In this document: positions 37,472-58,679 of the stretch, in pieces
Numbering within the stretch: the stretch's first letter is position 1
Layout: the number at the start of each line of letters is the position of its first letter
Assembly (NCBI GenBank): GCA_028554795.2
Contig: CM068824.1
Span: 161,522,130-161,586,129, forward strand
Source of the DNA: Sinohyriopsis cumingii
Lineage: Eukaryota; Mollusca; Bivalvia; Unionida; Unionidae
Length of the DNA: 64,000 bases
Direction: 5' to 3'
Position numbers and translations under genes: made by a program
Notes under the pieces: generated by a model
Told to the model about the DNA's origin: nothing
Databases searched by the model: none
Seen by the model: only the letters and a program-made list of their open reading frames with translations

Positions 37472-37845
37472 AGTAGTGAATAGGGTCACTTTGGAGACAA
37501 TGGGAATTAGCATTAAAAACCACCCTGGGCCACTTTGGCGACAATGGGAAATTTAACATTACGAAAACCCCTGGGTCACTTTAGCGACAATGGGAAATTA
37601 ACATGGGAATATATTTTGGGTCTGTTGAGCGACAAGGGAAAATGGAACAGGGTCGGGATCCTATTTTAATATGGTCAAGACCTGATGGGTCTATGGAAAT
37701 GGAACAGGCGAAAAAAATTGAAACAGGGAGGGATCTCTATTTTTTAAAAAAAAATAAATAAAAATAAAAATAAAAAAGGGTAGGCAATTGAAAGTCTATC
37801 TCTTTTCGAGAGATGTGGGTGGCCCTGAAAAGGGCCTTTGGGTTT
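37472..37845. repeat. Left terminal inverted repeat
   Basis: Pairs with 55637-56010. Contains four ~45-bp subrepeats starting gggtcacttt or gggtctgttg with a shared gcgacaa(t)ggga core, an A/T-rich spacer (~37741-37775), the 'aattgaaagtctatctcttt' block and, at the inner edge, the histone-type stem-loop (37821-37836) read outward on the minus strand. Confidence 0.95.
37821..37836 (-). promoter_or_regulatory. Histone-type mRNA 3' stem-loop in left TIR
   Basis: Minus strand reads ggcccttttcagggcc: a 6-bp stem with loop TTTC, flanked 5' by acccaaa and 3' by acccaca. The purine element aaaagagat follows ~15 nt later. The stop of the leftward gene at 37856 is 19 nt upstream. This is the metazoan histone consensus in stem, loop (U at loop positions 1 and 3) and flanks. 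Confidence 0.8.
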
Positions 37846-37855
37846 ATATATGCCC

Positions 37856-38086
37856 TTAACATAAAGGGCATCTGTGACTTCTTCTTGTCCTTAGGCTTCG
37901 TCTAATGGTAGGACCATACACTAACACTCTTTTGAGGCATCCTTGCCTTTCCACGTAAATCCTACGTATCCATAGGCTTGTGGCGGTCCTATGGACAACT
38001 GTCCATTCGGATCGGACATACATCGGTATGTCCGTCGTGAACATCATTGTTGACACAAGGGTGGAAGATTCAACGTCAGTATACAT
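37856..38086 (-). CDS. Small Arg/Cys-containing leftward gene with histone-type 3' end
   Basis: A 76-residue frame, not recognised. Its C-terminal third is arginine-rich with two late cysteines. Evidence that it is real is contextual: a TATAAATA box on the minus strand at 38131-38138, ~45 nt upstream of the ATG (leaving room for a start site near 38108), and a stop 19 nt before the stem-loop at 37836, the same layout as the small genes at the other end. It forms a divergent pair with the gene at 38306. A plus-strand frame of similar length overlaps it but lacks a promoter or 3' signal. Confidence 0.5.
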   Translation of the reverse strand: MYTDVESSTLVSTMMFTTDIPMYVRSEWTVVHRTATSLWIRRIYVERQGCLKRVLVYGPTIRRSLRTRRSHRCPLC

Positions 38087-38305
38087 GCTGAGGCGCCGAG
38101 AACAGGTGAATCAATGCAGTGAACTGCGCTTATTTATAGGTAGAGGAAGGATTGAAACGGATTGAGTTCATTGACCAATCCAAACACGCGTTACAAAATT
38201 CAGTCAGCTCGCATCCAATCCGAAGAGAGCAGTCTGTGACGTCACGTGGTCTATATAGATTCGCTAGCGCCTGTGCGCAGTCAATTCATGCGACAGTTAT
38301 TCAAC
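38087..38305. promoter_or_regulatory. Bidirectional promoter between the two left-end genes
   Basis: On the minus side TATAAATA at 38131-38138 faces the 37856-38086 gene. On the plus side TATATA at 38252-38257 is followed ~30 nt later by tcaatt and the ATG at 38306. Between them lie two CCAAT boxes (about 38177 and 38213) and a compound TGACGTCACGTG (38237-38248), i.e. a CRE overlapping an E-box. The plus TATA position rules out the upstream ATG at 38246 as the start. Confidence 0.65.
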
Positions 38306-38875
38306 ATGACGGAAACTCAGAAAACGATCAATTGGGGTGCACCAGCAGTGGAGACCACCCAATGGAACCCGGACTTACTTTCAGAAGAGGTAAATTGGGA
38401 TTCTGTGGATTTTCTTACCTCGCAAGAATTTGTTCCGGAACCTTCATCACCTTCTTCATTACCGCGCGTGGAGAATTTTAGACAGAGACAGAAAGAAGAA
38501 TTGGAGAAATTTATACAACAGCAAAAGGAAGCGGAACAAGCTTTTCTCCTACAGCAACAACAGCAAGAAGAAGAGGTAAGAAAAAAACAACAAGAAGAAG
38601 CAGCAGCAAAGAAACAAGGGTGTGAAAATCAAACGGTCACGGTATTGTTAGACATTTTAGCGGAGTTAAGAAGTCTGAAACAGATGTATCAGACTTCTTT
38701 ATTACGACCGAAGAGAATACGACCTTAACGAGCTAATAACGTCAACCCTCTGACTAAGCCTACCGTGCCACCCTTAGTGATTTCAACTAAATCATCATCA
38801 TCATCAACAGTACGCAGTCCAGAAATAGGCCTTGGCCGTGGCGAAGGCTTAAGACAGTTAAAGCTGATTGCTTAA
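38306..38875 (+). pseudogene. Q/E-rich coiled-coil protein gene, probably with one premature stop
   Basis: From the ATG at 38306 the frame reads 140 residues to a TAA at 38726. It has an acidic N-terminal ~55 residues, then a long Q/E/K coiled coil (residues ~60-115) and a basic end. The same frame remains open for 48 more codons to a TAA at 38873, 20 nt before the stem-loop at 38896. Since the other stem-loop genes stop 15-29 nt before theirs, the stop at 38726 is probably a later mutation or marks a shorter form. Family unknown; its composition resembles the coiled-coil genes at 53436 and 54250. Confidence 0.6.
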
Positions 38876-38895
38876 ACTCACCCCTACACCAAAAC

Positions 38896-38911
38896 GGCCC
38901 TTTTCAGGGCC
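38896..38911 (+). promoter_or_regulatory. Histone-type mRNA 3' stem-loop
   Basis: ggcccttttcagggcc (6-bp stem, loop TTTC), followed by accaa and, 15 nt later, the purine element gaaaagagatag. The 'agactttcaattgcc' tail is shared with the TIR copies, so the whole ~55-bp 3' module was duplicated. Confidence 0.8.
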
Positions 38912-39074
38912 ACCAACGTCTCTCGAAAAGAGATAGACTTTCAATTGCCAACATCCATTCAAACTCAAAAAAAACAAAACAACCCATTTTACCCCTATAG
39001 TACGTGTGTATGAGTGTGTGAGTGTACGTTCTTATTTCAAAATCAAAACTCAGACACTTACCTTTTATACCTAA

Positions 39075-39080
39075 TTTATT
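39075..39080 (-). terminator. Polyadenylation signal AATAAA (minus)
   Basis: AATAAA on the minus strand about 105 nt after the stop of the zinc-knuckle gene. No histone-type stem-loop accompanies this gene. Confidence 0.6.
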
Positions 39081-39183
39081 CTTTTATAAATATTTACAAT
39101 CCAATTCACAATTCACAATTCTCAACAAATCACTTTAAAAATTTCATACACTTCTTCTGTCTCATTATTTAGTCTCTCTGTTT

Positions 39184-39606
39184 TTAAAATTTCTTCACCA
39201 TCACAGTCTTTTCCTCGTCTTCCTCCCCACTTTCTTCCCTTCTTCTTTTCTTCTCCTGTTTCTTTTTCTTCACCTGTCTGCTTTCTTCCTCTTCTTCTTC
39301 CTCTGAAGAATCCCTCTCTTCTTCTGGCTCCTCGTCTTTCTTTTTTGGGCAATCTGGAGACCAATGTCCTTTTTCTTGACAATAATAACAGGTATCTTGA
39401 CTTTTGTCTCTTTTAATCCCTGTTTTTCTTTTTTGACGGTCTGGACACTCTGAAGACCAATGTCCTTTCTTCTGACAGATATAGCAAGTATCTTCACTTT
39501 TATCTCGCAAGGAAGGAGAGCAGTCCGTCGGCTGGTCTGAAGAGAATTTTCTAATGACCCCTCGCAAACCTCTGATGAAACGTTCGATCTGGGTAGTTTC
39601 TTCCAT
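39184..39606 (-). CDS. Double CCHC zinc-knuckle protein with acidic and lysine-rich tail
   Basis: 140 residues from the ATG at 39606. Two exact C-x2-C-x4-H-x4-C knuckles (C41, C44, H49, C54 and C73, C76, H81, C86) are near-duplicates, each with a KKGHW or EKGHW core. An E/D/S-rich stretch and a K/R-rich end follow. Such knuckles bind single-stranded nucleic acid in Gag and CNBP proteins; a role in genome or transcript binding is inference. The frame is open up to 39654, but the TATA box (minus, 39660-39671) puts transcription start near 39640, so the ATG at 39654 would lie upstream of the mRNA. It appears intact. Transcribed away from polB. Confidence 0.8.
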   Translation of the reverse strand: MEETTQIERFIRGLRGVIRKFSSDQPTDCSPSLRDKSEDTCYICQKKGHWSSECPDRQKRKTGIKRDKSQDTCYYCQEKGHWSPDCPKKKDEEPEEERDSSEEEEEEESRQVKKKKQEKKRRREESGEEDEEKTVMVKKF

Positions 39607-39654
39607 CGTTGTGCTCGGTTTGAGAGTGAAATGAATAGAGGAAGGACAAGACAC

Positions 39655-39740
39655 ATACCCTTTTATATACGCTGGTCTGCCATGACTATAAATTAGTCCA
39701 TGGTGTTTAAACTTTAGTCATTTGACTTTTTGCACTCAAG
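39655..39740. promoter_or_regulatory. Compact divergent promoter with back-to-back TATA boxes
   Basis: TATATAAAAGGG on the minus strand at 39660-39671 serves the zinc-knuckle gene. TATAAATT on the plus strand at 39687-39694 serves polB (ATG at 39741). Only about 15 bp separates the two boxes, so the two pre-initiation complexes would probably compete. Confidence 0.7.
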
Positions 39741-42700
39741 ATGAAACGATCCAATTCATCTGAGAAGAAAGAAGAAAGTAAGAGGCAGAAACGTGATCTA
39801 TCGCCTCGTACCAGGGCTGAAGCTTGGCACAAATTCATGCCAGCGATTTTGAAGAGGACATGAGTGAACCAGAATCAAACCCTCTAAACAAAGTTCACCA
39901 CCCTTAGTCAACCCTGAAAAGTACTATGACATTCGAGAGACGGAAAAGCGTCCCTCTAGAAAATTTAGAACCACGGCTTACAAATACACGGTGAAGTTTA
40001 AAGATTTCAAGTCCGAAGTACCGTTAGAGAAAGCAGAAGGGTTCATCACCGAGATGTGGGATTCTTTGCTCACCACACTCAAGCGACAATGTCAACCTAA
40101 AGAAGACGATCGCTTGAGACTTTCCATACATCACGACGGCTTGAAATCCCCTGTTTGGATCGAGTTTAGCAGCCCTGCAGAATTAACCGATTCCAAAGTC
40201 ATGGACAAGATTCAACACGTGCAACAATCTAATGACCAGTTTGACATCACCGATGGAAAAGCCACACTGGACATGACCCACGTCTCTCCTCCTCAAGGGA
40301 CTGGACGCTAAAAGATCTTATTGGTGAACGACCTTCGCAGCACCAAAAAGAGTCTCGTCCGAATTAACAACCCTCAAGACCAGATGTGTTTAGCCCGAGC
40401 CATCGTAGTGGGATGAACCTATGCCAACAAGAACGACACGGTAGAATGGAAAAGAGCCTGGAAAACTATTCAAAAATCGGACCAAGCCAAACAACGAAAC
40501 GAAGCAGAACTCCTGTTACAACAAGCCGGCCTGTCCAAAGACACACCCTGTGGCATTCCTGAAATGCAAAAATTGTAAGATGCCCTAGCTCCACGCTACA
40601 CTTTGAAAGTGCACCCTCAAGAAATGCGTGGGCCTCTATTGTTTCGAGGGAAAGACTTTAAGGATGGAAAATACATTCGTGTCTATCATCACGATGAACA
40701 TTTCGATACCATTAATAGCATCACCGGATTCCTGGGATATGTTCATTATTGTGAGAAATGTGACTATGGCTATAACAATCGAGAGCAACACAAGCATTGT
40801 GGATTGAAATGCTCAGGATGTTTGGCCTCTCAACCCTGTCTGAGCGAAGGGCAAGAACCAGTGCATTGTCCAGCTTGTCAGCGCACGTTTGTCAGCCCTG
40901 CCTGTTACCAACAACATCTGAAATGTGCTTGTCAACTCCTGAGATTGTGCCCTACCTGTGGACAAGGCCTATGTACCAACAGTGCCAAGGCCCAGGTATG
41001 TCGAGGAAAGAAAAAATGTCACATTTGTCACCACATCGTGGACTTGGAACACCAATGCTTTGTGCAAAAATACCAACCCAAACCAGAGAAAGAGGACGGT
41101 CACAAGAAGAAAGGCAATTTCATCTTTTTCGATTTCGAATGCATGCAAGAGACCGGCATTCACATTCCTAATTTCTGCGTGGCTCATCGAGCGTGCGAAA
41201 AGTGCATTCAAGAATATATTTTCAGTCATTGCCCTCACTGCAGTAAGATTCCTGGAGGGCGTGAAAAAATCTTTCGAGGACCCAACACGCTAGCCGATTT
41301 CGCTCGATGGGTCTTAAACCCCATCGACAAGACGTGGAGCCAAGAGGACATCGAACGTTATCGAGATTGTCATTGCCATACCACGGTGATGGCTCACAAT
41401 TTCTCCGGATACGATGGACAGTTTCTTTTGAGATACTATACGGAACATGGCACCGAACGTCCTAAAGTGACTTTGAACGGAGCCAAAATCATTTTCATGC
41501 AAGTGGGACAAGTACAGTTTAAAGATTCGATGAGTTACTTGGCCATGCCTTTGAGCCGAATGCCTAAAACGTTTGGAATGACAGATATGGTTAAAGGGTA
41601 CTTTCCACACATTTTCAATACGGAAGCCAATCAACATGCCGTTCTACCCATTTACCTGAGACTCACTATTACGACCCTGACAACATGCGTACCGAACAAC
41701 GAGAAGCTTTCTACGCTTGGTACCAGGCTCACGCCTCGGACCCTTTCGACTGTCAGGAAGAAATGCTATAGTATTGTCGTTCCGACGTGGACATTTTACG
41801 TCGATGCTGTGGAAAATTTCGAGAACTGTTCATGGAACACGGAGGGGTCGATCCTTTGAAAGAAGCTTGCACCATTGCCAAAGCCTGTTCCTTAGCGTAC
41901 AGGCAACGATTCATGCCTGAAAACACCGTGGCTGTCATCAGTCCTCAAACGACCAACTATGTCAAACGTCAATACTCGGTCAAAGCCCTACGTTGGTTAC
42001 GTTACTTGTGCGACAAGGAAGACAAATGGATTCAGCTTGCCCGCAACGGAGGGGGCGAAAAGACCATCGGAATACATTCGGTCGATGGCTGGGACTTAGA
42101 AAACCCCAAGATCGTGTACGAGTTTAACGGTTGCTTATTTCACTGATGCCCCGTCTGCTACCCTGACCGCGGCACTAAAAATCAGTTTTTACAACTAACC
42201 ATGGAAGACTGGTACCAGGACACTTGTCAGTGACGCCTAAAGTTAGAACAGGAAGGATACCAAGTGGTGGAAATGTGGGAACACGAGTACGACCACCGTT
42301 TGAAAACCGATCCTGAGTTTAAACGCCTCGTGGAAAGTTACCAGTTCATGGACCCCCTGAACCCGAGGGATAGTTTGTACGGAGGAAGGACCAATGCCAC
42401 TGTTTGCTGTACCAAGCCGACGAAGAGAAAGGAGAAGAAATCAAATACTTGGACGTGTGTTCGCTGTATCCCTACGTGTGCAAATATTGTCGCTTTCCTG
42501 CAGGGCACCGACAATTGTTCACCGAACACATCGACCTTAAAAACATTCGACAATACGAAGGCTTGATCAAGTACAAAGTTTTGCTTCCCACGAATCTATA
42601 CCATCCCGTCTTACCTCACCATTGCCAAGGCAGACTGATGTTTCCTTTGTGCCGTACTTGTGCCGAAACGTGCAACCAAGACCAACCTTGTCAGCACACC

Positions 42701-43430
42701 CAGGAAGGACGGGCCTTGACGGGGACGTGGGTCAGCGTAGAATTGTTCAAAGCTTTGGACATGGGATATCAACTGTTAGAAGTGTACGAAATTTATCACT
42801 TTCCCAAGACACAACAATACCACAAGGGTGACCCCACGCAGAAAGGGATTTTCGCAGACTACGTGGATGCCTTTTTGAAACTGAAGCAAGAAGCCAGTGG
42901 CTATCCTTCCTGGTGTCACACTCCCGAAGACCAAATACAATTCAATGAGAAATACTTTAGACCACATCGAGAAAAACGAAGGCAGGCGATCGTTTGCCAA
43001 AGTGATGTTAAATTGCTTGTGGGGAAAAATGGCACAACGACCGTGTTTACCCAAGACGGAGTATTTGACAGAACCTTCCCGCTACTTTCAGATGATTCAC
43101 GACAAAACCAAATTCATGAAACACGTGGACGTCGTTCGAGAGGATTTGATCTTGGTCAATTACGAAGAAGATCTGGACTTTGTACAAGACGACCCTTTTG
43201 GAAATGTCATCATTGCGGCTTACGTGACAGCTCATGCTCGTTTAAAATTGTACGAAGCTTTAGAACTGTTAAGGGAACGCGTCCTGTACTTTGACACGGA
43301 CAGTTGCATTTACATCCATCACCCGAGTCAACAGCACCCTGACATCGAAGGAGACCGTTTAGGAGCCTGGACAGACGAGCACCCCGACGATAAGATTCTA
43401 AGTTTCGTCAGTGGCGGTCCCAAAAATTAG
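39741..43430 (+). pseudogene. polB: Protein-primed family B DNA polymerase, broken
   Basis: Replicates the linear element using a terminal-protein primer. A lysine-rich N-terminus is followed by a Cys/His-rich region (40740-41060, several CxxC pairs), the exonuclease motifs 'FFDFECMQ' (Exo I, ~41130), 'HNFSGYDGQF' (Exo II, ~41400) and 'YCRSDVDIL' (Exo III, ~41775). Then come polymerase motif A 'YLDVCSLYPYV' (~42450), motif B 'KVMLNCLWGKMAQR' (~43000) and motif C 'YFDTDSCIYIH' (~43290), ending near 'FVSGGPKN'. All catalytic residues remain, but there are about five frameshifts (near 39835, 39890, 41700, 42400, 42965) and stops at 40309, ~40416, ~40576, 41772, 42145, 42231 and 43428. The region after motif C is short and unrecognised, so the C-terminus may also be lost. 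Confidence 0.93.
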
Positions 43431-43713
43431 TTTAGACAGGCACAATTCAAGTTTGGGGCTTCTGAAGTAGAATGCTATTGTGAGCCTTGCGATGGGAACG
43501 AGGCTGTACGCTGTGACCTTAAAGCATCATGGGAACTTTGTTCTCACTACCCCTATCATGGAAAGTGATGCTGTGCGTGCCAAACCTGAGGGGTGCGAAA
43601 GCGATGCCTTTCGTCCTCTTGGACACTTTACTGGGTCTTGTTTTAAAGGTGGATGTTCACCTTCACGTCTACCCTCCTATGGATGTCATCCAGCCCTGAG
43701 CAAACTCCTGTCC

Positions 43714-44025
43714 ATGTCACCCATCCCTCATCGAAACGAACCTGTGAAAGACGAATATTCGTTCCCTGTGCGTTTGTCGGAATACTGTGACTTTGAAAAT
43801 TGTCTTCAATCGTTCAAAGGAAAATGGCCTAAGTATCTGGGAGGTCCGACCCCCGAAGAATTAGCCAGAGTCGGATTGTTCTACTTGGGCGAAGGAGATA
43901 AAGTCAAGTGCTTCAGTTGCGGTGTTTCACTTCACCACTGGGAACCACAAGATTCGGCCTACCTAGAACATGCTCGTTGGTCACCGAATTGTCATTACTT
44001 ACCTTTAGTGGGACCGAGACATTGA
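43714..44025 (+). CDS. BIR-domain (inhibitor-of-apoptosis-like) protein
   Basis: 103 residues from the ATG at 43714. A single BIR domain spans ~residues 30-98 with the exact C-x2-C-x16-H-x6-C zinc site (C66, C69, H86, C93) and flanking 'ELARVGLFYLGEGDKVKCF' and 'HHWEPQDSAYLEHARW' blocks. BIR proteins bind caspases or pro-apoptotic peptides; there is no RING or CARD here, so it would act by binding rather than ubiquitylation. The frame is open upstream to 43480 but that part shows no domain. Likely captured from an animal host or a large DNA virus and used to keep infected cells alive (inference). Intact, and 11 bp before the next gene. Confidence 0.85.
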   Translation: MSPIPHRNEPVKDEYSFPVRLSEYCDFENCLQSFKGKWPKYLGGPTPEELARVGLFYLGEGDKVKCFSCGVSLHHWEPQDSAYLEHARWSPNCHYLPLVGPRH

Positions 44026-44036
44026 AGTAACTTACC

Positions 44037-44426
44037 ATGTCGTTGAAGAAGAAACCAGATTGGTTAGGAGTCAAATGTTGGACATCACCGAGACCAGTAT
44101 TTAAACTTCATTTCAAATACGATATTGAATCATTACCTAAGGAACTGCAAGAGAAGATTTACAAGGAAGTTTGCCAGGGGTTTGCCAGAGTGAAATCTCA
44201 ATGGGTAACTGTAGAACTTTTGTGCCGAGAAATTCACAAGAGGAAAGTGAAAAAAGTCAACCAGTGTGTTAGATTTCTCTGGGTCAAGTGTGCATTCATC
44301 CTATTATATCACTCAAGACCGTTTACATCAAAAGAATTCATTGCGATTCTTGGACGTTACCCTGAATGGCAGTGGTCAGAAATTACTCACTATGTGGATT
44401 ACTTTTGCTCCGGGAGAAGATTGTGA
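44037..44426 (+). CDS. Unrecognised helical protein A (LPxEL-IY motif)
   Basis: 129 residues, basic. Contains 'SLPKELQEKIYKEV' (~residues 32-45), shared with the next gene's 'ALPVELRERIYREL', so the two look like tandem paralogues. The motif resembles the first helix of F-box-like domains (LPxEL...I), but the rest does not match. Predicted mostly helical. Only 11 bp after the BIR gene and 21 bp before the next, with no TATA between, so the three may share a transcript. Function unknown; an apoptosis or ubiquitin link is only suggested by neighbours. Confidence 0.65.
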   Translation: MSLKKKPDWLGVKCWTSPRPVFKLHFKYDIESLPKELQEKIYKEVCQGFARVKSQWVTVELLCREIHKRKVKKVNQCVRFLWVKCAFILLYHSRPFTSKEFIAILGRYPEWQWSEITHYVDYFCSGRRL

Positions 44427-44447
44427 ATTGTACGGACTGACCTATTC

Positions 44448-44846
44448 ATGGATACTTTACAAGAGAACGTTCGTGCTTTGCCTGTGGAGTTGAGAGAACG
44501 CATTTACCGAGAACTGGTCAAAATACAAGTCAAACGTAAAGAACAATTGCATTGGTTACGTCACCAGCTCTTTAACCACTGGTACCTGAATGGTATAAGA
44601 GGACTGATTCGTCAGAAATTGTTTCAGTGGTCAGACCTTGTTCAACACTTTCAGTTAGTGAATGAACTAAATGTTAGTAATTTTGGTTACTTCGAGATTC
44701 ACCTAGCGCAACGTATTGAGGAAGACGAGTTAAAGGATTACCAACATATTTTACGTGGAACCTGCTTAGCGGAAGACGAAACATCTAAACAAACTTTGAA
44801 GTTTAGGTTACAGTTTGGAGCATTCAGATTCCCTACTGGAGAATGA
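44448..44846 (+). CDS. Unrecognised helical protein B, paralogue of A
   Basis: 132 residues. 'ALPVELRERIYREL' sits at residues ~10-23, followed by basic helices ('RKEQLHWLRHQLFNHWY') and an acidic stretch near residues 90-100. Similar in size and N-terminal motif to the upstream gene. No known family recognised. Confidence 0.6.
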   Translation: MDTLQENVRALPVELRERIYRELVKIQVKRKEQLHWLRHQLFNHWYLNGIRGLIRQKLFQWSDLVQHFQLVNELNVSNFGYFEIHLAQRIEEDELKDYQHILRGTCLAEDETSKQTLKFRLQFGAFRFPTGE

Positions 44847-44922
44847 AGATGTCTAGTTAGAAAGTACCTTTATTGCTTCCGAAACAAAGAGACTATAAAA
44901 TCAAGAATCCATGCCACGGCTT

Positions 44923-45353: not shown

Positions 45354-45354
45354 T

Positions 45355-45700: not shown

Positions 45701-46429
45701 ATGGCTACCTGAGCTGTCTCTGCTCCCTCTTCCTCTACTGTCAAAGTCATCGACGAACACTTAGATCGTGCCAGTTGGGAGGCTTTGTATCTTCGCCATC
45801 CCTTTAACATGCTCATTGCTGGACCTAGCGGTTCAGGCAAAACCGAATTCGTCAAACGTTTGATCGAACATAAACATCATTTGATCGATCGTCCACCTCA
45901 ACGCATCGTGTGGTGTTACAAAGAGTGGCAATCGGCGTACAGCCTCTTGCGAGAAAGTCAAGGCGATTCCATCGTGTTTGTGGAAGGCATTCCTAAAGAA
46001 GACGACAGCATCGTCTCTGACTCCCGTCAAACCCATTTGGTCATTTTCGACGACATGTTAGGAGAAGACGAAGAAGAAATTAAACTGTGGTTCACGCGCA
46101 AAGGGCATCACCGTAATGCCAGTGTCGTTTACATCACCCAAAATTTGTTTCAACAAAGTAAAGCCCATCGCACCATCAGTGTCAATGCGCATTACGTGGT
46201 CTTGTTTAAAAGCCCTCGAGATAAATCGCAAGTGCAAGTCTTAGCCAAACAGTTAGGAACGCCTTGGCTGACTCAGGCGTACGACGATGCCACTCAAACT
46301 CCACACGCCTATTTACTCGTCGATTTGAAACCTACGACTCCCGATGATTTGCGATTTCGTACCCACTTGTTTCACCACTGGTGCCAAGACGGAGGGCCTG
46401 TCCTGTACACGTCTCCATCATCGACTTAA
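45701..46429 (+). pseudogene. Packaging ATPase (A32/FtsK-HerA type) with stop at codon 4
   Basis: Motor that pumps the genome into the capsid. Walker A 'AGPSGSGKT' lies at ~residues 40-48, Walker B 'HLVIFDDML' near 113-120 and the sensor-like 'VVYITQNLF' after it; ~240 residues is typical of Polinton ATPases. From the TATA-positioned ATG at 45701 the fourth codon is TGA, and the remainder is open without lesion. An internal start at the leucine/methionine region near 45785-45809 would keep Walker A, so residual translation is conceivable. The first in-frame codons after the stop are clearly part of the protein. Confidence 0.92.
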
Positions 46430-48606: not shown

Positions 48607-48621
48607 CACACAAACCAACAA

Positions 48622-49783
48622 ATGGAAGAAGTCTTAGCCAGCATTTACTACGATCCCTGCCATCCTGCAGGTTACGCAGGAGTTCAAAAATTGTATCGTG
48701 CTGCCAAAACTCGACTGAAAAGTCTCCGTTTACCTCAAGTGCAACGATGGTTACAAGAACAAGCTACCTACACCTAAACCCATTCGACGCAAGTTTTCCA
48801 GAAGTCGCACCCGAGTGGAAGACATCGATCATCAATGGCAAGCCGATTTAGCCGATGTCTCTCATTTGGCCAGCTACAATCGTGGCTACAAATATTTGTT
48901 TTGTGTCATCGACGTCTTTTCCAAATTTGCCTGGGTCGTGCCCTTGACTTCCAAATCGAGCAGTGATTTAGTGCGAGCCCTGCAATGGTTGTTGAAACAA
49001 AGCGGTCGTCACCCTCTTCGATGGCAAACGGACAAAGGCACCGAATTTCTGAACCAAGCTTTCCAAAAAGAATTAAAGAAACGTGACATTCATTTTTTTA
49101 CCACCGAGAATCCTGAAACCAAAGCCAGCATCGTGGAACGTTTTCAACGCACTTTGAAAGAACGCATGTGGAAATATTTTACGCATCAGTACACTCTGAA
49201 GAACATCGACATCTTACCACACCTGGTGCAAGCGTACAACCAATCTTACCATCGAAACATTGGACGTGCCCCGCAAGAAGTGACTCCCGACAACGAAGTG
49301 CTGATGTTTGAGCGCCTGTTTGGTGCGTCTCCGACGAGGGCTGTCCCCAAGAAAAGTGTAGTGTTGGACGTAGGAGATTGGGTACGCGTTGGCAAAACCA
49401 AACGCACTTTCGACAAAGGTTACTTACCTAACTGGACCACCGAATTGTTTCTTGTCACTGGACGAGTGCATGGTCGTCATCATGCCGTCTATAAATTGGA
49501 AGACATGAACGGAGAAGTGCTCAAAGGAACGTTTTATTTGCCCGAGTTACAACGTGTCACCAAAAAAGAAGACGACGTGTACGACATCGAAAGCATTCTC
49601 GAACGCAGAACCCGTAAAGTGGGCAAACGACGTGTCAAAGAAGTCAAAGTACGTTGGAAAGGATATCCGCCCAGTTTTGATTCTTGGATCGACGCTTCGC
49701 AAGTCATCGACTATAAAAAGCTTTGGAAAGTGTCAAAAAAAGTGTCACCATGGAATACCACAAAGCAGCTCGTCGCTTCTTGA
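48622..49783 (+). pseudogene. Polinton integrase (RVE) with C-terminal chromodomain, one frameshift
   Basis: Joins the TIR ends to host DNA, giving 6-bp duplications. The N-terminal part (48622-48774, 'YYDPCHPAGYAGVQKLYRA') ends at a TAA at 48775, but the next frame continues directly with 'PKPIRRKFSRSRTRVEDID'. Catalytic triad: D in 'WQADLADV' (~48845), D in 'QTDKGTEF' (~49031) and E in 'ASIVERFQRTL' (~49136), with 34 residues between the last two. A chromodomain follows (~49580-49730, 'VKVRWKGYPPSFDSWID'), which in other elements guides integration to histone marks. One lesion near 48770 inactivates it. Confidence 0.93.
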
Positions 49784-50262
49784 TGAAATTTGACGGGAGT
49801 AAAATCGTGTCCATTTTATTTTGTCCTGAATTGTTTGACATGTTGGGCGGAGACATGGACATGAGAATGGCCATGATCAAGAAAAACGAATTACCAATTA
49901 TTTACGACAACGAGTCTTTTAGCAAGTTATTTCGTGCCCCGGTAGAACTGAACCAAGGACTGAATTTGATGTTTGTGTACTCCGATGTGGTGGAGTATAA
50001 CGTGGTGGGACACACCTCTGTGACGTTACTGCGTGTCATTCCTTTCAAAGTGGATTCTGCCACGACAGCTGACGAGGAAGGTGGAAACACTTACTACGTT
50101 CACCGCGAATTTGTACATCCTCACTATTTACCTGTCAGTAAATCGTATTTGGACACGGTCAACATTGCTATAAAAGGAGATCTGGGACAAAATATTCCAT
50201 TCACCAAAGGAAAAGTCACGGTGAAACTCCATTTTCGAAAACGGTTCTCTCACGAGTCGTAA
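49750..50262 (+). pseudogene. Penton-like minor capsid protein, C-terminal part only
   Basis: 170 residues matching the C-terminal half of the Polinton penton-like single-jelly-roll protein: a 'LFVYSDVV'-type strand (here 'MFVYSDVVEYNVVGHTSVTL'), 'LLRVIPF', 'YLPVSKSYLDTVNIAI' and the terminal 'PFTKGKVTVKLHFRKR'. Full-length relatives are more than twice as long; the N-terminal jelly-roll strands are missing and the frame starts inside the integrase end, with a 34-bp overlap. An internal deletion at ~49.74-49.78 kb is the simplest explanation. The remaining frame is open. Confidence 0.75.
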
Positions 50263-50265
50263 GTC

Positions 50266-50691
50266 ATGTATTCAGTGTACCGAGGCGTTGCTCGACAGCG
50301 AGGACACGGTTTAGGAGATATGTTAAAATCGGCCTTTCGTTCGGTGGCCCCGGTGTTGAAACCGATGGTGACACGCGGATTGCACGCATTGAAAGATGCG
50401 GCACTGACGCAAGGCAAAGAATTTCTCCAAAATGTCATCATCGACAAACAAATCCCCAAAGAAGCTTTCTTGAGGGCAGGCAAAAATGTCTTGTTGCAAA
50501 CGGGCAAAGACCTTTTGGGCCGACGAGAAACACCTATAAATGCCCTGCACGCTACCGAGTCAGGCATTCAGCAAGGACAAGGCAGAAAGAGACGACGAAG
50601 AAAACACCCTTTCACCAGTCTTCACACGTCTAAAGCTAGAAAGGCAAAGAAAAGAAGAACCGTTCGAGACTTAGACGTTTTCGATTATTAA
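50266..50691 (+). CDS. pVI/pX-like minor capsid protein
   Basis: 141 residues, three bases after the penton stop. N-terminal 'VYRGVARQRGHGLGDMLK' followed by an amphipathic helical region and a K/R-rich tail ('GRKRRRRKHPF', 'KARKAKKRR') ending 'DVFDY'. The RQRGHGLG start and basic end are characteristic of the protein that sits just upstream of the capsid gene in Polintons and adintoviruses, thought to be a counterpart of membrane-active or core proteins of adenoviruses. Intact. Confidence 0.75.
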   Translation: MYSVYRGVARQRGHGLGDMLKSAFRSVAPVLKPMVTRGLHALKDAALTQGKEFLQNVIIDKQIPKEAFLRAGKNVLLQTGKDLLGRRETPINALHATESGIQQGQGRKRRRRKHPFTSLHTSKARKAKKRRTVRDLDVFDY

Positions 50692-50717
50692 AATATTGAA
50701 AAAACAGAAAAAAAATA

Positions 50718-52009
50718 ATGCACCGAGAGTCTTGCGCCTGTTCCAAGTCGGAACTGGATCTGTTTGCCATGCCCCTCACCATGATGACCATGCAAGAATC
50801 CCAGTGGGTGGAATTTCATCCCGTCTCCTCTTTGATGGATTCCGCTCCCATCGAGTTTGAAATCGAAGGACAGCCCGAAGATTACATCGATCTGAATAGC
50901 AGTTACCTGTACTTGAAAGTGAAAGTGATCAAAACGGACAACACCAATCCAGGAGGCGATGCTAGAGTAGCTCCTGTCAACAATTTCATGCATTTCTTGT
51001 TCAGCGAAGTGGACTTGTACTTGAATAACAAACTGGTCAGCAGCAGCATGGATACTTACCCATATCGTGCCTACCTGGAAAATCTCTTGACGTACGGAAA
51101 AGAAGCCAAGAATACTCATCTGGATGCTTGCGTGGTATGGAAACCTGACACGGCAGGTGTAGCCACGTTTAACGACACAGTCCTAACAGAAGATGACAAT
51201 CCTCACAATGTGGGGTTTAACGACCGTCGCAAGAAAATTCTGCAAGGGCGAAGTTTAGAACTGATGGATCGTTTGCATTTGGACATGTGGTTACAAGAAA
51301 AGTATTTGCTCAACGGGGTGGATATCCGTCTGAGACTGAATCGTAGCAGTGCCGCTTTCCATTTGATTGCCCATGCCAATGAATACAAAACTATCATTCA
51401 AGAAGCCCGACTTTACGTGCGTCGTGTGGAAGTGTTGCCTAAAGTGGGAAACGACGTCAGTCACACGTTGAGCAGAACGACCGCCAAGTATCCGATACGA
51501 CGCGTAGAAGTGAAAACGTTCACCATTCCTGCTGGACAGCGATCTATGATCGAAGATCATCTGTTCCACAGACAGTTACCCAAGCGTTTGATTGTTGGTA
51601 TCGTCAGGAATTCAGCCTTCAACGGAACCCACGATCAAAATCCTTTTGAGTTTCAACATTACAATGTGTCCAAGATTGAAGTCAGTCGCGACGGCAAGAC
51701 CTTGTGTACCCGACCCTTTAAGCCTAACTTTGGTGTCGCGAAGAATTATTTGAGATCGTACTTGTCCCTGTACGAAGCCAACGGACAGTTAGGAACCAAC
51801 ACCAGTCACGGTATTTCGTACGACGATTATGCAGGAGGCTATGCTTTGTGGGGTTTTGATTTCACTCCAGACCAAGGCAGCGACAGATTCGTGTGGAACT
51901 TCAGTTTGCAAATCCACCTCCAGATCACACAGTGAACGTCCTCCTGTATGCAGAATTTGACAATACCATAGAAATCAACAGTTTGAGAGAAGTCATTCTA
52001 GACTATTAA
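50718..52009 (+). pseudogene. Major capsid protein (double jelly roll), frameshifted near its C-terminus
   Basis: 405 residues read from 50718 to 51935, beginning with the family's 'SKSELDLFAMP' and 'QWVEFHPVSSLMD' blocks. It includes 'NSSYLYLKVKVIKT', 'YPYRAYLENLLTYGKEAKNT', 'RLHLDMWLQEKYLLNGVDIR' and 'YAGGYALWGFDFTPDQ'. This matches Polinton capsid proteins, long annotated in worms as F54H12.2-like. The last ~25 residues are displaced: after the stop at 51933 the expected ending (with 'LLYAEFDNTIEI' and a final DY) lies in another frame up to a TAA at 52007-52009. One base change in length near 51930 explains it. Otherwise undamaged. Confidence 0.92.
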
Positions 52010-52014
52010 AAGCC

Positions 52015-52520
52015 ATGGAAGACTGTTATCCCTCTTTACCTAGTGGAGAAACTTTGGAGATGGAATGTGAGGAGACCGGGGAAGAAGAATCTCAAGACAA
52101 CGACGAAGAAGTTATCATGATGAAGTCGAGATGGACAGAACAAGAAGCCCATTTAGTCTCCTGTTTTGCTACATTCCTGGCAGATATAATGAAAGAATTG
52201 ATCAAGGAAGAGTGTTATGGATGTCACAACGATCATCCCAGTCAAATTCAACACGACAAATGTCTGATGTTAAGTCAAGAAGAAAAATTGGACGAATATC
52301 TGGACAAAGCTTGGGATCACAAATCGAAATAGAATTCGTGTTGAACGAGTGGTATAAAGGCCTGGATAAACATTCTTCTCCTCCATTAACATCTCTGGAG
52401 TGACGTCGCATCGAATCTCTCTTGGACCAGAGTAAGAAGTCGGATCTAAACGCCTTTTACTTGTCAGACATTTTCAAGCAAAAAGTCAGGATCGAATTGA
52501 TCACTTATCATTACCTGTGA
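52015..52520 (+). pseudogene. Polinton-conserved 'HPSQ' Cys protein, frameshift plus stop
   Basis: The 105-residue first frame has an acidic N-terminus then 'ECYGCHNDHPSQIQHDKCLM', a C-x2-C-x-x-x-HPSQ-x2-H motif I recall in many Polintons, of unknown function and possibly metal-binding. Near 52320 the frame breaks; the continuation ('EFVLNEWYKGLDKHSSPPL') meets a TGA at 52401 and then stays open to a TGA at 52518. It starts 5 bp after the capsid gene and ends 20 bp before the protease. Confidence 0.65.
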
Positions 52521-52540
52521 AGAAAAAAACACACAAATCA

Positions 52541-53101
52541 ATGGATACCTGGGAACTTTATTACCTTTTGAACCACAGCTCGTACACGGCTTCTTCGAAT
52601 CCTGTCGTCTGTGCTAAAGATGAACTCCCTCATCGTAAACCTCAAGACCATCTAGCTTATGTGATCAACACGGACGACAGTCATCTCCCAGGAACCCACT
52701 GGGTAGCCGTCTACTTTCCTCAAGAAGGATGTTTGGAATATTTCGATTCGTATGGATTGCCTCCTTTGGAAGACGATATCATTGACTTTATGAAAAGAAA
52801 TGCTCAGACCACCCGATTCAATAATGTGAAATTACAAGGCGCAGATTCCTTGGTGTGTGGACAATATTGTGTGTATTTTCTGCATCATCACAGCCTGGGT
52901 TATTCCTTAGAACATTTAGTGACTCATTTTGATCCTGGTTCTTCTTCTAGAAACGATGTAAAAGTAGATCGATGGTTTTGTGACCATTATGCTTATCTTT
53001 TGTCTCAAGCTAGGAAACGTGGTGTCCATCAATGGCCTAATGACTTCCAACAGTGGAAATCACAATTTCATTCACAACGTTGTCATCCTTGTCCAAAATA
53101 A
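52541..53101 (+). CDS. Adenain-like (Ulp1-fold) capsid maturation cysteine protease
   Basis: 186 residues from the ATG at 52541 (an open frame continues upstream but has no ATG). Catalytic residues: H53 in 'GTHWVAVYF', D69 in 'LEYFDSYGLPP', a candidate oxyanion Q99 and C110 in 'VCGQYCVYF'. Size and layout match adenovirus/Polinton proteases that cleave capsid precursors. No lesion is seen, making it the only core enzyme gene of the element that is intact. Followed by AATAAA at 53211. Confidence 0.93.
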   Translation: MDTWELYYLLNHSSYTASSNPVVCAKDELPHRKPQDHLAYVINTDDSHLPGTHWVAVYFPQEGCLEYFDSYGLPPLEDDIIDFMKRNAQTTRFNNVKLQGADSLVCGQYCVYFLHHHSLGYSLEHLVTHFDPGSSSRNDVKVDRWFCDHYAYLLSQARKRGVHQWPNDFQQWKSQFHSQRCHPCPK

Positions 53102-53210
53102 TGTGTTAGTTGGAAAAAAATGTTTGTCATTTGAAAAAAAATGTTTGATGTTATATTGTTGGATTATTGTTAAAACTGTTAGAGTTGTTTGTTAGTGTTA
53201 GGTGATTTTG

Positions 53211-53216
53211 AATAAA
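53211..53216 (+). terminator. Polyadenylation signal AATAAA after the structural gene block
   Basis: AATAAAAAAA 110 nt after the protease stop. Marks the end of the capsid/protease block. The small genes to the right use stem-loops instead. Confidence 0.6.
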
Positions 53217-53343
53217 AAAATGTTGTTTTGAAGAAAAATGCCTTTGTCTTTTTGTTTGGCTATAAGAATTTTGATTCATGCTCTTTGACTTCTTACTATC
53301 CCTCTCATGACACTCATTGAACGTTCCGACTCTAAAACCGTGT

Positions 53344-53435
53344 AGGGATGTTTTCCTTCACGTCCGCGCTTTGACTTTAAAAACCGGGGCAGTTTCCAGT
53401 CTAACCATCCATTGCCGACTCATCCTCCTACGAAG
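53344..53435 (+). promoter_or_regulatory. Right-end small-gene promoter, copy 1
   Basis: Conserved box ggatgttttccttcacgtcc + gcgcttt (53345-53371), TATA-like tttaaaaa (53376-53383), then a start-site-like 'ccagtctaacc' ~25 nt on and the ATG at 53436. The same box recurs at 54164, 54901 and 54967. Confidence 0.7.
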
Positions 53436-53801
53436 ATGTGCTCCAAACTAGCTAAGCTAAACGAAGCCTACGTGAATTTGCATAGGGTCAGACACAGTCT
53501 GATACCGAAGCCAGAAGAGATAGAGAATGTGAGAATGTTAAAAGACAGCGAAGACCTGATAGAAGAGCTCTTCAGAGAAGAAGTGAACAGGGAGAAAGAA
53601 GAATGGACAGAGAAGTACAGACTTCAGAAACAGCAGAGACAGCAGCAACAGCAACAACAACAACAGCAGCAGCAACCTGAACCTGACAGAGGCTTTGTCG
53701 ATTGTCGTATCGACACCAAAGAGTTCTTCTTCTCTTTCCGAAGAAGCAGACCTATCGTCAGAAAGTCTATCGTCAGAGGACATCGCATTCTTAGAAACTA
53801 A
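53436..53801 (+). CDS. Small coiled-coil protein (right-end family, member 1)
   Basis: 121 residues from the ATG at 53436; the TATA position excludes the upstream non-ATG part of the frame. A charged helix 'DSEDLIEELFREEVNREKEEW' (written here in its core form; residues ~41-61) passes into a polyglutamine tract (13 Q in CAG/CAA) and a basic C-terminus. The helix shares the pattern xDLIxExxxxEVxxxKExW with the genes at 55053 and, loosely, 54250, so the three are probable paralogues. Intact; the stop is 25 nt before the stem-loop. Function unknown. Confidence 0.7.
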   Translation: MCSKLAKLNEAYVNLHRVRHSLIPKPEEIENVRMLKDSEDLIEELFREEVNREKEEWTEKYRLQKQQRQQQQQQQQQQQQPEPDRGFVDCRIDTKEFFFSFRRSRPIVRKSIVRGHRILRN

Positions 53802-53826
53802 AAGATTGCCATAGCAAACAAAAAAC

Positions 53827-53842
53827 AGCCCTTTTAAGGGCT
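53827..53842 (+). promoter_or_regulatory. Histone-type mRNA 3' stem-loop
   Basis: agcccttttaagggct: 6-bp stem with loop TTTA, then ACCCA and a purine element gaaaagaaat 14 nt later. The closing pair is A-T instead of G-C on both sides (a compensated change), while the invariant second G-C pair and loop uridines are kept. 'aatcgatttgccaatgtg' follows, related to the TIR tail. Confidence 0.78.
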
Positions 53843-54163
53843 ACCCAATACTCTAGAAAAGAAATAACAATCGATTTGCCAATGTGTTTATGTAGAGTAG
53901 TGTGAATATAAACACTGACTCTTTTGTGGTGTGAGTGTATGTGTTTGTGTGGATAGTAGATAATGATCATGGTTTTTTTGCTGTTTGACGTGCGTGGAGA
54001 GTAGATTTGGGGTTTGATTGCTTTGGGTATGTAAATAGTATATAATTTTTTAAAATGAAAATTTTGAAATTAGTAATAGGTAGTATAAAAAAGTGAGTTA
54101 GTGTTTCTTTTAGGTCCGCGCGTTGTTTGGTCATGATCTAGGTAATATAACTTTTGTTTTAGG

Positions 54164-54249
54164 AGATGTTTTCCTTCACGTCCGCGCTTTAACTATAAAT
54201 TGAAAATCGCTCGGCAGTCTAGCTACCCTGTTCATTCGTTAACAAGACA
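54164..54249 (+). promoter_or_regulatory. Right-end small-gene promoter, copy 2
   Basis: Box gatgttttccttcacgtccg + cgcttt at 54165-54190, TATAAAT at 54194-54200, 'ggcagtctagc' ~15 nt later and ATG at 54250. A partial box (tccgcgcgttgtttgg) precedes it at 54115. Confidence 0.75.
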
Positions 54250-54558
54250 ATGAATACCAGAACTGTAAAGCTTCTAGAACTCCAGATGCACCTGGAATAT
54301 GCCAGGCGTATAGTGAATGAGCTGGCTGCAGAGGCCATAGTAGAAGAAGCAAGGATAAAGAAAGAAGACGAGGAAAGAAGACAGAGGGAAGAGGAGGAAA
54401 AGAAAATAGGAGAGAGGATGGCTTACAAGATACCAGAGACAGAGGATTGGGGTGCTGAGGCCAATCATCCTCCCTCTGCGCTCTCAAGAAAAAAAGTAAT
54501 AGGAGACTGGGGAAGAAGATGTGTGTGTGGTGCCAGGCCTGGAAGGTGCCATCATTAA
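54250..54558 (+). CDS. Small coiled-coil protein (right-end family, member 2)
   Basis: 102 residues. Helix with 'LLELQMHLEYARRIVNELAA' then a very charged E/K/R coiled coil (residues ~35-56), 'YKIPETEDWG', and a C-terminus containing 'RRCVCGARPGRCHH', a Cys/His cluster that could bind metal. Intact; the stop lies 29 nt before the stem-loop. Related in layout to the genes at 53436 and 55053. Function unknown. Confidence 0.7.
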   Translation: MNTRTVKLLELQMHLEYARRIVNELAAEAIVEEARIKKEDEERRQREEEEKKIGERMAYKIPETEDWGAEANHPPSALSRKKVIGDWGRRCVCGARPGRCHH

Positions 54559-54587
54559 CCAGGTGTCACTGGAGTTCAAAAACAAAC

Positions 54588-54603
54588 AGCCCTTTTCAGG
54601 GCT
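54588..54603 (+). promoter_or_regulatory. Histone-type mRNA 3' stem-loop
   Basis: agcccttttcagggct (loop TTTC), then ACCCA, then gaaaagaaatag 14 nt later. Same compensated A-T closing pair as the copy at 53827, showing these two share a recent origin. Confidence 0.8.
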
Positions 54604-54900
54604 ACCCAAACCTTTAGAAAAGAAATAGTAATCGATTTGCCAATGTGTGTAGAGCAGTGTGAATATAAACACGGACTCTTTTTTAGTAGTGTGAGTGTGT
54701 GTGTGTTTGTGTTTGTAAGCGCTCACGTACGTTTGTGTGGATAGTAGATTATTGGGTTTTGTAAAAGCTTAAGCTGGTTTGGGTGGATAGTAGATTTGGG
54801 TTTCATTTTAATGCTTTGCGTGTGTGTATAGTAGATTTGGGACTTGTTTATTGCTCCTTCACGTATGTGGATAGTAGATAATATGAAATGAGAAAAGTAG

Positions 54901-55052
54901 GGGATGTTTTCCTTCACGTCCGCGCGTTTTAAGTGATGATCTAGGTAAGATAAGTTTTGTTTTAGGGGGATGTTTTCCATCACGTTCGCACTTTTCGTAT
55001 AAGAACCCACAGTGTTAGTCGTTCGCACCATTCTAAGGAATAAACAAAGAAG
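54901..55052 (+). promoter_or_regulatory. Right-end small-gene promoter, copies 3 and 4 in tandem
   Basis: Two boxes: gatgttttccttcacgtccg at 54903 and the variant gatgttttccatcacgttcg at 54969, the latter followed by TATAAG (54998-55003), 'agtgttagtcg' and the ATG at 55053. The box at 54903 has no TATA of its own. Confidence 0.7.
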
Positions 55053-55630
55053 ATGGAGGTGACAAAATTATTTAACGATTTGAGACATAGCTATTTTTGG
55101 ATCATGGATGGGACTTATGTAGTAGAAAGATTGAATAAGGAAGGAAGATTTCAAGGTAGCCTGAACAATGTGAAGAGTCTTGGAGTAGCAAAAGATCTAA
55201 TAGGGGGAATGATTGAGGAAGAAGTAGAAAGAATCAGAGGATTCATTGACCCACCTTACGTGAGAGTAGGTACTTTAAAGGAAGCCTTGGATCATATCAT
55301 AGAAGTTAGGAGCTTCCTAGAAAATAGCTTTTATTGGACTTACTGGTGGTACGTAAAGTGGGTTTTAACCAGTTGATAAAAGCAGAAGAACTAATTAGAG
55401 AGGTAATGAAAGTAGAAGTGATGAAGATAAAAGAAAAATGGAGCAAAGAGAGAAAGGAAGAAGAGAATAAGAAGAAGAAATTAGAGTTTGAAAGATTGAA
55501 TAACAACTGGATGATCCAACAGAAATTCAGAGATATGGGTCATCCTGACTGGATAACAGAAACTGAAAAGAGGAAGAAGAAAGGAATAATGGAAAAAGTG
55601 AAGACTTGGTGGAAGAAGTGGAGAAGTTAG
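55053..55630 (+). pseudogene. Small coiled-coil protein (right-end family, member 3), frameshifted
   Basis: The first frame (55053-55376) has 'DLIGGMIEEEVERIRGFID'; the second (to 55630) has 'AEELIREVMKVEVMKIKEKW', a K/E/R-rich coiled coil and a W/K-rich end 'KTWWKKWRS'. A length change between about 55330 and 55376 separates them. The repeated xELIxxxMxxEV motif in both halves, also present at 53436, suggests the ancestral protein carried two copies of one helix. The stop is 15 nt before the stem-loop in the right TIR. Confidence 0.65.
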
Positions 55631-55636
55631 AAGAAG

Positions 55637-56010
55637 AAACCCAAAGGCCCTTTTCAGGGCCACCCACATCTCTCGAAAAGAGATAGACTTTCAATTGCCT
55701 ACCCTTTTTTTTATTTTTTTATTATTTTTTTTATAAATAAAATAGAGACCCCTCCCTGTTTCAATTTTTTTCGCCTGTTCCATTTCCATAGACCCATCAG
55801 GTCGTGACCATATTAAAATAGGGTCCCGAGCCTGTTCCATTTCCCCTTGTCGCTCAACAAACCCAAAATATATTCCCATGTTCATTTCCCTTGTCGCTCA
55901 ACAGACCCAAAATATATTCCCATGTTAATTTCCCATTGTCGCTAAAGTGACCCAGGGGTTTTCGTAATGTTAAATTTCCCATTGTCGCCAAAGTGACCCT
56001 ATTCACTACT
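55637..56010. repeat. Right terminal inverted repeat
   Basis: Inverted partner of 37472-37845, equally long. Its ~45-bp subrepeats are arranged differently from the left TIR: the unit with gttgagcgacaa is present twice here and once on the left, while the unit with ctttggcgacaat is present once here and twice on the left. Confidence 0.95.
55646..55661 (+). promoter_or_regulatory. Histone-type mRNA 3' stem-loop in right TIR
   Basis: ggcccttttcagggcc with 5' flank acccaaa and 3' flank acccaca; AAAGAG begins 16 nt after the stem, as in a histone downstream element bound by U7 snRNA. The downstream atctctcgaaaagagat can itself pair as a second small hairpin. Confidence 0.85.
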
Positions 56011-58670: not shown

Positions 58671-58679
58671 AGAGCCTTG

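Follow-up and report, generated by a model that had tools for sequence, protein, structure and literature searches.

A mollusc Polinton whose small terminal genes end, and in part begin, like replication-dependent histone genes

We describe an 18,539-bp mobile element in a 64,000-nucleotide (nt) stretch of Sinohyriopsis cumingii DNA (contig CM068824.1, positions 161,522,130 to 161,586,129 of the forward strand), called the window below and numbered from its first letter. Based on its terminal inverted repeats, target duplication, Pfam domains and capsid relatives, the element is a Polinton. It begins with AGTAGTGAATAGGG at both ends, and its terminal repeats are about 374 bp long, with a complementarity of 93% over 254 nt and 99% over 115 nt. 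The outer part of these repeats is made up of 44-46-nt subrepeats (37463-37643 and 55841-55973). Five small terminal genes, here named a to e, are each followed by a stem-loop of the type found at the 3' ends of histone mRNAs. The element, its repeats and these genes are as follows (aa, amino acids; bit scores refer to Rfam family RF00032, Histone3).

37472..56010, no strand: Polinton element, flanked by the 6-bp target duplication GCTGCC at 37466-37471 and 56011-56016
37472..37845, no strand: left terminal inverted repeat; the hairpin and GAAAAGA of gene a lie in its inner end
37796..37841, minus strand: stem-loop and GAAAAGA of gene a, 40.3 bits
37856..38086, minus strand: gene a, a 76-aa basic protein, with its stop 19 nt ahead of the hairpin
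38288..38875, plus strand: gene b, with an in-frame stop at 38726-38728, the frame then being open to a stop at 38873-38875, 20 nt ahead of the hairpin
38891..38936, plus strand: stem-loop and GAAAAGA of gene b, 36.7 bits
53436..53801, plus strand: gene c, 121 aa, with its stop 25 nt ahead of the hairpin
53822..53867, plus strand: stem-loop (A-U closed) and GAAAAGA of gene c, 31.1 bits, E 1.8e-5, under the gathering score
54250..54558, plus strand: gene d, 102 aa, with its stop 29 nt ahead of the hairpin
54583..54628, plus strand: stem-loop (A-U closed) and GAAAAGA of gene d, 31.6 bits, E 1.2e-5, under the gathering score
55053..55630, plus strand: gene e, in two frames (55053-55376 and 55406-55630) in the window copy, the last stop 15 nt ahead of the hairpin
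55641..55686, plus strand: stem-loop and GAAAAGA of gene e, 40.3 bits
55637..56010, no strand: right terminal inverted repeat; the hairpin and GAAAAGA of gene e lie in its inner end

A preliminary description of this DNA had reported the five hairpins, and all five were recovered where it had placed them, as exact matches to RGCCCTTTTNAGGGCY. When up to two mismatches are allowed, the window holds seven matches, compared with 0.12 on average in 100 shuffles. The two additional places are the reverse reading of 53827 and a hairpin-like sequence outside the Polinton (GACCCTTTTTAGGGCT, 25396-25411, minus strand, one mismatch), which we take as a chance match. In a covariance-model search of the whole window, three of the five hairpins scored above the RF00032 gathering score of 34 bits, and in a 20-kb search all five had E values of 1.8e-5 or better. 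The purine-rich downstream element was likewise confirmed: GAAAAGA lies 13 nt past the stem at every hairpin. The full motif (hairpin, A, 11-14 nt, AAAAG[AG]) occurs five times in the Polinton and never in 200 Markov-1 simulations. All five hairpins fold into the stem, and the three G-C forms add a second stem that reaches the downstream element. The loop base of the variant stem had been written as Y; at 53827 it is A, hence the correct code is M.

The hairpins at 37821 (minus strand) and 55646 represent a single sequence of the terminal repeats that is present twice, and those at 53827 and 54588 form a sister pair that agrees at 88% over 74 nt. For these reasons the five hairpins are not five independent cases, and we rejected an interpretation as five independent covarying hairpins, counting about three lineages. 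The repeated placement at the ends of five genes is not overstated by this non-independence. A distance of 15-29 nt from stop codon to hairpin, as given earlier, applies to genes a, c, d and e and fails for gene b, at which it amounts to 167 nt in the window copy. Gene b is unbroken in 10 other copies, encoding 183-193 aa and ending 19-27 nt ahead of the hairpin, and gene e forms a single frame in two other copies (182 aa in L004 and 204 aa in L017). The window copy is broken, given the disrupted frames of its DNA polymerase gene, the in-frame stop of gene b and the division of gene e between two frames.

No histone domain was detected in genes a to e of the window copy at E 0.1, and the accessory proteins had no Pfam or PHROGs match above cutoff. 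The gene b protein has a conserved acidic-aromatic N terminus (NWDxVDFL, SQEF) and a glutamine-rich middle; its 20 relatives in public data, 56-92% identical, come from contigs of at most 2.3 kb. Ratios of nonsynonymous to synonymous substitution rates (dN/dS), calculated for three genes on unbroken frames only, were 0.14 for gene a (n = 14 copies), 0.47 for gene b (n = 10) and 0.20 for gene d (n = 5).

Histone stem-loops are generally held to be special to replication-dependent histone mRNAs in animals. The histone genes of the host lie in tandem repeats of about 8.3 kb (114 H4 matches, about 109 of them full length), and the nearest named relative of the host H1 is from Mytilus. Our comparison is with one repeat that was read (L052), containing H4, H2B, H2A, H1 and H3. 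Alignment with these host 3' ends gave the same type of stem, followed by GAAAAG at 13, 13, 14, 14 and 13 nt, respectively. Host stems read GGCCCUUUUHAGGGCC, with a GGUCC/GGACC variant in H1. Three host histone stem-loops score 35.9-38.2 in RF00032 (H2A and H1 were outside those loci), below the terminal-repeat hairpins (40.3). In a BLASTN comparison of the Polinton with the histone repeat, the 3' module shared by genes a and e was most like that of host H2B (82% over 55 nt); the captured parts therefore look host-derived, and the signals probably stem from a histone repeat of the host. The upstream matches are 20-27 nt long, the boxes described below agreeing at 88-100% and on the sense strand.

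Two of the five hairpins sit at the inner edge of the terminal repeats, which would fit a role as a DNA signal, or as a replication or packaging signal of these repeats, with no part played in mRNA. We regard such a role as very improbable, because the other three hairpins are internal, all five are oriented with the preceding gene, and the downstream element equals the host histone signal in letters and spacing.

Upstream of genes c, d and e we found histone-promoter-like boxes that had not been noticed before. They are listed here together with the promoter region of genes a and b.

38087..38287, no strand: divergent promoter region of genes a and b, with CCAAT at 38175 and 38215 and TATA-like sequences
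53347..53370, plus strand: T1 box of gene c, TTTAAA 5 nt on; 1 of 24 nt differs from the host H2B box
54104..54124, plus strand: T2 box upstream of gene d, identical over 21 nt to a host H4 promoter box
54165..54188, plus strand: T1 box of gene d, TATAAA 5 nt on
54903..54992, plus strand: two T1 boxes of gene e, at 54903 (1 mismatch) and 54969 (3 mismatches), TATAAG 5 nt past the second

The T1 box, GATGTTTTCCTTCACGTCCGCGCT, is present without mismatch at genes c and d and twice, less exactly, at gene e. In host promoters it recurs with one mismatch in H2B (23/24 nt) and two in H1 (22/24), and weakly, with five mismatches, in H2A. The T2 box is TTTCTTTTAGGTCCGCGCGTT, and its host counterpart is located 59 nt ahead of the H4 start codon. 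A TATA-like sequence comes 5 nt past T1 in each of these three Polinton genes; among the host promoters, the gap is 4 nt for H1 and 27 nt for H2B. When up to four mismatches are allowed, all T1 and T2 matches of the window fall at the right end of the Polinton, and their cores, with up to three mismatches, had no match in nine unrelated loci. The CCAAT boxes of genes a and b were rejected as histone-specific, the motif being too common.

At the level of the DNA, then, genes a to e end in a histone stem-loop and a host-type downstream element at the host spacing, and genes c, d and e begin with host-type boxes. We propose, with a probability of roughly 0.82, that a bivalve-like mollusc Polinton took up control signals of the replication-dependent histone genes of its host and employs them to express the small accessory genes at its termini.

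The hairpin is present past homologous genes in copies and sites chosen without regard to it, whether by flank or by capsid. Among flank-located sites (module masked, 30 loci originally picked for another hairpin; 45 rows, of which 17 with 21-101-nt alignments were dropped), 24 of 28 hairpins equal the consensus and four have one or two changes. At the d sites of the 30 loci (n = 12), conservation is 0.969 in the hairpin and 0.99 in the downstream element versus 0.82 upstream and 0.77 downstream. Open frames of at least 70 aa end 7-36 nt ahead of 38 of the 59 hairpins listed in these loci. In six copies chosen by their capsid genes, all 16 hairpins found equal the consensus, each past an open frame of 102-247 aa that ends 15-46 nt earlier; one of these copies (L081) reached the first site only, and one further match with three mismatches was dropped as spurious. 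The capsids of four of the six are 76-79% identical to that of the window. Pairwise identities among these copies and the window copy (flanks 30-150 nt before and 60-240 nt after) were, at e sites, 0.53 upstream, 0.98 in the hairpin, 1.0 in GAAAAGA and 0.49 beyond, with 11 of 384 windows as conserved as the hairpin. The corresponding values were 0.82, 1.0, 1.0 and 0.69 at d sites, with 6 of 384 windows as conserved, and 0.88, 0.98, 1.0 and 0.55 at c sites. Local conservation is thus clear at two of the three right-end sites (d and e).

These data bear on the possibility of passive capture, by which histone gene pieces would have been picked up once and carried along unused, their conserved look resulting from recent multiplication. 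Consistent with it are the very high copy number (33,759 modules, see below), the 95-97% identity of many of the 103 scored capsid copies, and the hairpins of genes b and c, which are no more conserved than much of their surroundings. Nevertheless, we consider passive capture improbable: the modules stand in sense behind five different genes (at 15-29 nt in four), boxes precede three of these, and the coding sequence between is unrelated. Moreover, 16 of 16 hairpins are intact in the six capsid-chosen copies, four of them with capsids measured at 76-79% identity to that of the window, while the flanks of gene e are 0.49-0.53 identical.

The reading that the Polinton uses these signals can also be viewed across the 2.9-Gb host assembly, in which the hairpin-ACC-AAAAG module has 33,759 matches and its reversed pattern none; for the 19-nt core of the T1 box the numbers are 32,116 and 0. 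Taking two A-U modules per element, this suggests, as a rough estimate, about 10,000 Polinton copies making up about 6% of the host genome. No internal stop was present in 100 of 103 and 95 of 97 best-scored capsid matches (from 28,970 and 27,652 candidates, respectively), which may mean recent spread. A same-sense module lies 150-1000 nt downstream of 50 of 93 T1 boxes, 0.63 being expected at random; the comparison covers the 93 boxes on C1, seven of the 100 listed having been left out because they lay beyond the module list. In a genome-wide Histone3 search, in which 75 of 589,472 candidates were scored, the best 30 of the 75 listed loci all align to the Polinton, and tblastn with five typed histones found no histone gene in these 30. 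With 75 candidates scored, this list may lack hairpins of the host histone genes and of the window.

Boxes and hairpins might instead be a general mollusc signal, serving as promoter and 3'-end parts in many host genes and not specific to histones; in its favour, a single host genome was examined. This explanation is the least credible of those considered, given that a listed module lies within 20 kb of 91 of the 93 T1 boxes (first 6.28 Mb of C1) and that the 30 Histone3 loci fetched were without exception Polinton. The module count would also suit a decoy, with stem-loop RNAs soaking up SLBP or the U7 small nuclear ribonucleoprotein (snRNP) and so lowering the histone supply of the host during Polinton replication: 33,759 modules compare with roughly 550 host histone stem-loops, if the approximately 109 full-length H4 matches are multiplied by five stem-loops per repeat, as in the one repeat read. 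We think a decoy quite unlikely, since the hairpins follow open frames under purifying selection (in the three of five genes measured), so that coding matters, and since most copies are probably silent.

Several observations weigh against the use of histone control signals by the Polinton, or against its generality. Past the stem, the tail is ACC in the Polinton and ACA (three genes), ATA or ACT in the host histones, and at e sites this ACC is less well kept (0.69). Two of the five hairpins in the window and 12 of 16 in the capsid-chosen copies score under the curated Rfam cutoff. At gene b sites (n = 13) the contrast to the flanks is small, 93 of 444 windows being as high as the hairpin, and the c hairpin is not outstanding, with 67 of 384 windows as conserved. 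The preliminary description had seen compensated changes in the stem as a sign of selection on structure; such changes are few, with two double-change pairs among 18 sequences, a number matched in 61 of 500 shuffles, and in the same test the cells paired and the covariation score were reached by just 5 and 4 of 500 shuffles. Genome-wide, the outer pair is A-U in 19,940 and G-C in 13,441 modules, 33,381 of 33,759 in all (98.9%), but this pairing is not independent evidence, because the two pair types follow two lineages. The approximately 200-bp divergent promoter of genes a and b contains no T1 or T2 box. Two signals of the poly(A) type are near the start of hairpin e, AATAAA at 90 nt and ATTAAA at 166 nt, and one is near that of hairpin a, ATTAAA at 166 nt. 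The earlier assignment of AATAAA to the structural genes is weakly borne out, by a signal at 53211 past the putative protease gene and one at 39080 (minus strand) past a zinc-knuckle gene. We do not accept an absence of AATAAA as evidence, because absence is often expected by chance and because two of the hairpin genes have signals of the poly(A) type.

Neither of the two host factors turned up in the host genome. Family and pattern searches for U7 returned weak or chance-like candidates only (14 pattern matches versus 4 reversed), and neither a family search nor a typed peptide found SLBP, these SLBP searches being without a positive control. One U7 small nuclear RNA (snRNA)-like match in the host genome (L047, 1501-1560) has 29.3 bits, under the cutoff of 34, and is doubtful.

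As regards wider generality, four of four distant relatives (L073 to L076), which are partly incomplete, had no Histone3 match at E 0.1, and the hairpin trait may therefore be restricted to a lineage. The absence in L073 is weak evidence, because its sequence covers the ATPase to the protease and the ends of the element are uncertain. All four are GTDB contigs in bacterial assemblies, with capsid identities of 25-46%, two being from tubeworm and mussel symbionts; they are probably contamination from animal hosts, because the capsid proteins they encode are of the animal Polinton type. L074 has a weak twister-P1 ribozyme-like match (11731-11795, 28.9 bits, cutoff 67.2), some 540 nt downstream from its capsid match. 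In IMG/VR, scans with the capsid protein and the capsid alignment found no relatives, and the gene b alignment found none. The IMG/VR contigs containing the stem pattern (5 and 2) were taken as chance, since the stretches scanned had no Histone3 match at the gathering score.

On balance, the accessory genes are most likely expressed in the manner of replication-dependent histone genes, as far as this can be read from DNA, and the suggestion made earlier, of accessory mRNAs that are non-polyadenylated and produced in S phase, is supported. The support for S phase comes from the promoter boxes; the 3' ends alone would not support such timing. According to PMC7026596 and PMC2781718, histone mRNAs are recognised at the stem-loop by SLBP and at the downstream element by base pairing with the 5' end of U7 snRNA; CPSF73 cuts between the two signals, and it is through the stem-loop that the stability of the mRNA depends on DNA synthesis. 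For the Polinton genes, we infer cleavage, absence of poly(A) and S-phase timing from the same signals. The T1 and T2 boxes would bring the transcription programme of histone genes; SLBP would bind the stem-loop and U7 snRNP the downstream element, and CPSF73 would cleave between them. The resulting mRNAs would carry no poly(A) tail; they would be produced, persist and be translated during S phase, and might do so in the egg and early embryo too, like stored histone mRNAs. S phase would be the time when replication proteins and nucleotides needed by the Polinton are present. Cleavage at the outer two hairpins would also prevent outward transcription from going beyond the inner edges of the terminal repeats. 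Our guess is that the accessory proteins are early regulators. With less assurance, we lean towards a broader proposition, namely that the whole histone programme (boxes, stem-loop and U7 element) was adopted for S-phase, non-polyadenylated mRNAs of regulatory genes, and that the more than 33,000 modules would constitute the main class of histone-type 3' ends in the host genome, which may tax SLBP and U7 of the host.

Other genes of the element are of Polinton type.

40624..43430, plus strand: DNA polymerase type B (PF03175), with several broken frames in the window copy
45809..46429, plus strand: packaging ATPase of A32 type (PF04665, 23.4 bits, cutoff 22.8)
49166..49783, plus strand: chromodomain end of the putative integrase (PF00385, E 3.2e-8)
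50718..51935, plus strand: major capsid protein, 1246 relatives at E 0.001

Two polymerase pieces match PF03175 with E 8.9e-6 (25.3 bits, Pfam cutoff 25.8) and 0.0011, both under the cutoff, and a stretch of the putative integrase is 47% identical in L073. Among the best 120 of the 1246 capsid relatives, those named are from Mercenaria (the nearest), Ostrea, Crassostrea, Saccostrea and one sea cucumber, in addition to one bacterial metagenome-assembled genome. The double jelly roll family PF21738 was matched above cutoff by one capsid relative (P0111, 43% identical) and by none of the 13 members of capsid alignment A1, the window capsid included; the capsid profile gave a single unconvincing match to PDB sequences. 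Another gene, named a putative adenain-type protease after a sequence motif, has no Pfam match, and relatives at 24-35% are present in L073, L075 and L076.

The Polinton also contains a gene with a BIR (inhibitor of apoptosis) domain (43492-44025, Pfam E 4.5e-21) and, on the minus strand, a zinc-knuckle gene (39184-39606) with two internal 65-nt copies that are 80% alike and an AATAAA about 100 nt past its stop. Outside the element, a transfer RNA (tRNA)-like sequence (36243-36314, 33.5 bits) has a 41-nt partial copy, 93% similar, 1.4 kb off at 34854-34894, and is perhaps a tRNA-derived short interspersed element. In the region searched, from 30000 on, there are minisatellites of 36 and 44 nt and an array with an 8-nt period that is opposite-oriented on the two sides of the Polinton (30000-31600, 57851-58810, 33588-33892 and 62720-62903).

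If our interpretation is true, the histone pathway can be borrowed by an element that gives unrelated genes the signals of histone genes, and a mechanism would exist by which a transposon or virus could tie the expression of its genes to DNA replication in the host. The accessory genes would offer natural test constructs, with other coding sequence and the same signals, in which effects of the signals can be separated from effects of histones. There is also a warning for annotation: by our counts, Histone3 matches in the host genome mark a Polinton far more often than a histone gene.

The nearest precedent is PMC12220804, in whose non-coding RNA section an Rfam scan at the gathering score, covering 8,300 genomes of polinton-like viruses and virophages, is reported to have found six histone 3' untranslated region (UTR) stem-loops and none in the 1,107 cryptophyte elements. 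These elements share with ours RF00032-type matches at the gathering score in Polinton relatives. That section gives a bare count and is silent on position, gene ends, downstream element, promoters and function; our interpretation, if true, would give meaning to these six unexplained stem-loops. The statement that such 3' ends had not been described for Polintons or adintoviruses thus stands in part, histone stem-loops having already been counted among polinton-like virus genomes in this 2025 paper. In the literature searched, which included few subscription papers, there was no report of histone-type promoters together with histone-type 3' ends, or of their use by accessory genes, in a transposon or DNA virus. 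Of two adintovirus papers, PMC8363768 has the word histone only in a reference title, and PMC11071296, in its relevant part, mentions histones for histone-like proteins; PMC12721341 and PMC10120064 had no relevant passage.

Compared with known Polintons/Mavericks and adintoviruses, the window element has the same terminal inverted repeats, 6-bp target duplication, polymerase B, chromodomain, A32-type ATPase and capsid; it differs in that accessory genes carry promoter boxes and 3' ends of the histone type. Another link to histones is the Histoid (PMC11071296) of adomaviruses, animal DNA viruses that have genes in common with adintoviruses; there a protein resembles histones, whereas here the control signals alone do so. 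A Histone3 match has also been predicted in a coronavirus genome; according to PMC7786107, that of SARS-CoV-2, an RNA virus, has 14.7 bits, far under the cutoff of 34, and falls within the sequence coding for nsp3. Histone mRNAs of the clam Lucina have a similar palindrome near the stop codon, as stated in a passage of PMC6210712. With metazoan replication-dependent histone genes in general, the accessory genes share the stem, the loop, the downstream element, its spacing and a short 3' UTR, together with the boxes of host H2B, H1 and H4. They differ from such genes in that they encode no histone, sit in a mobile element and carry an ACC tail.

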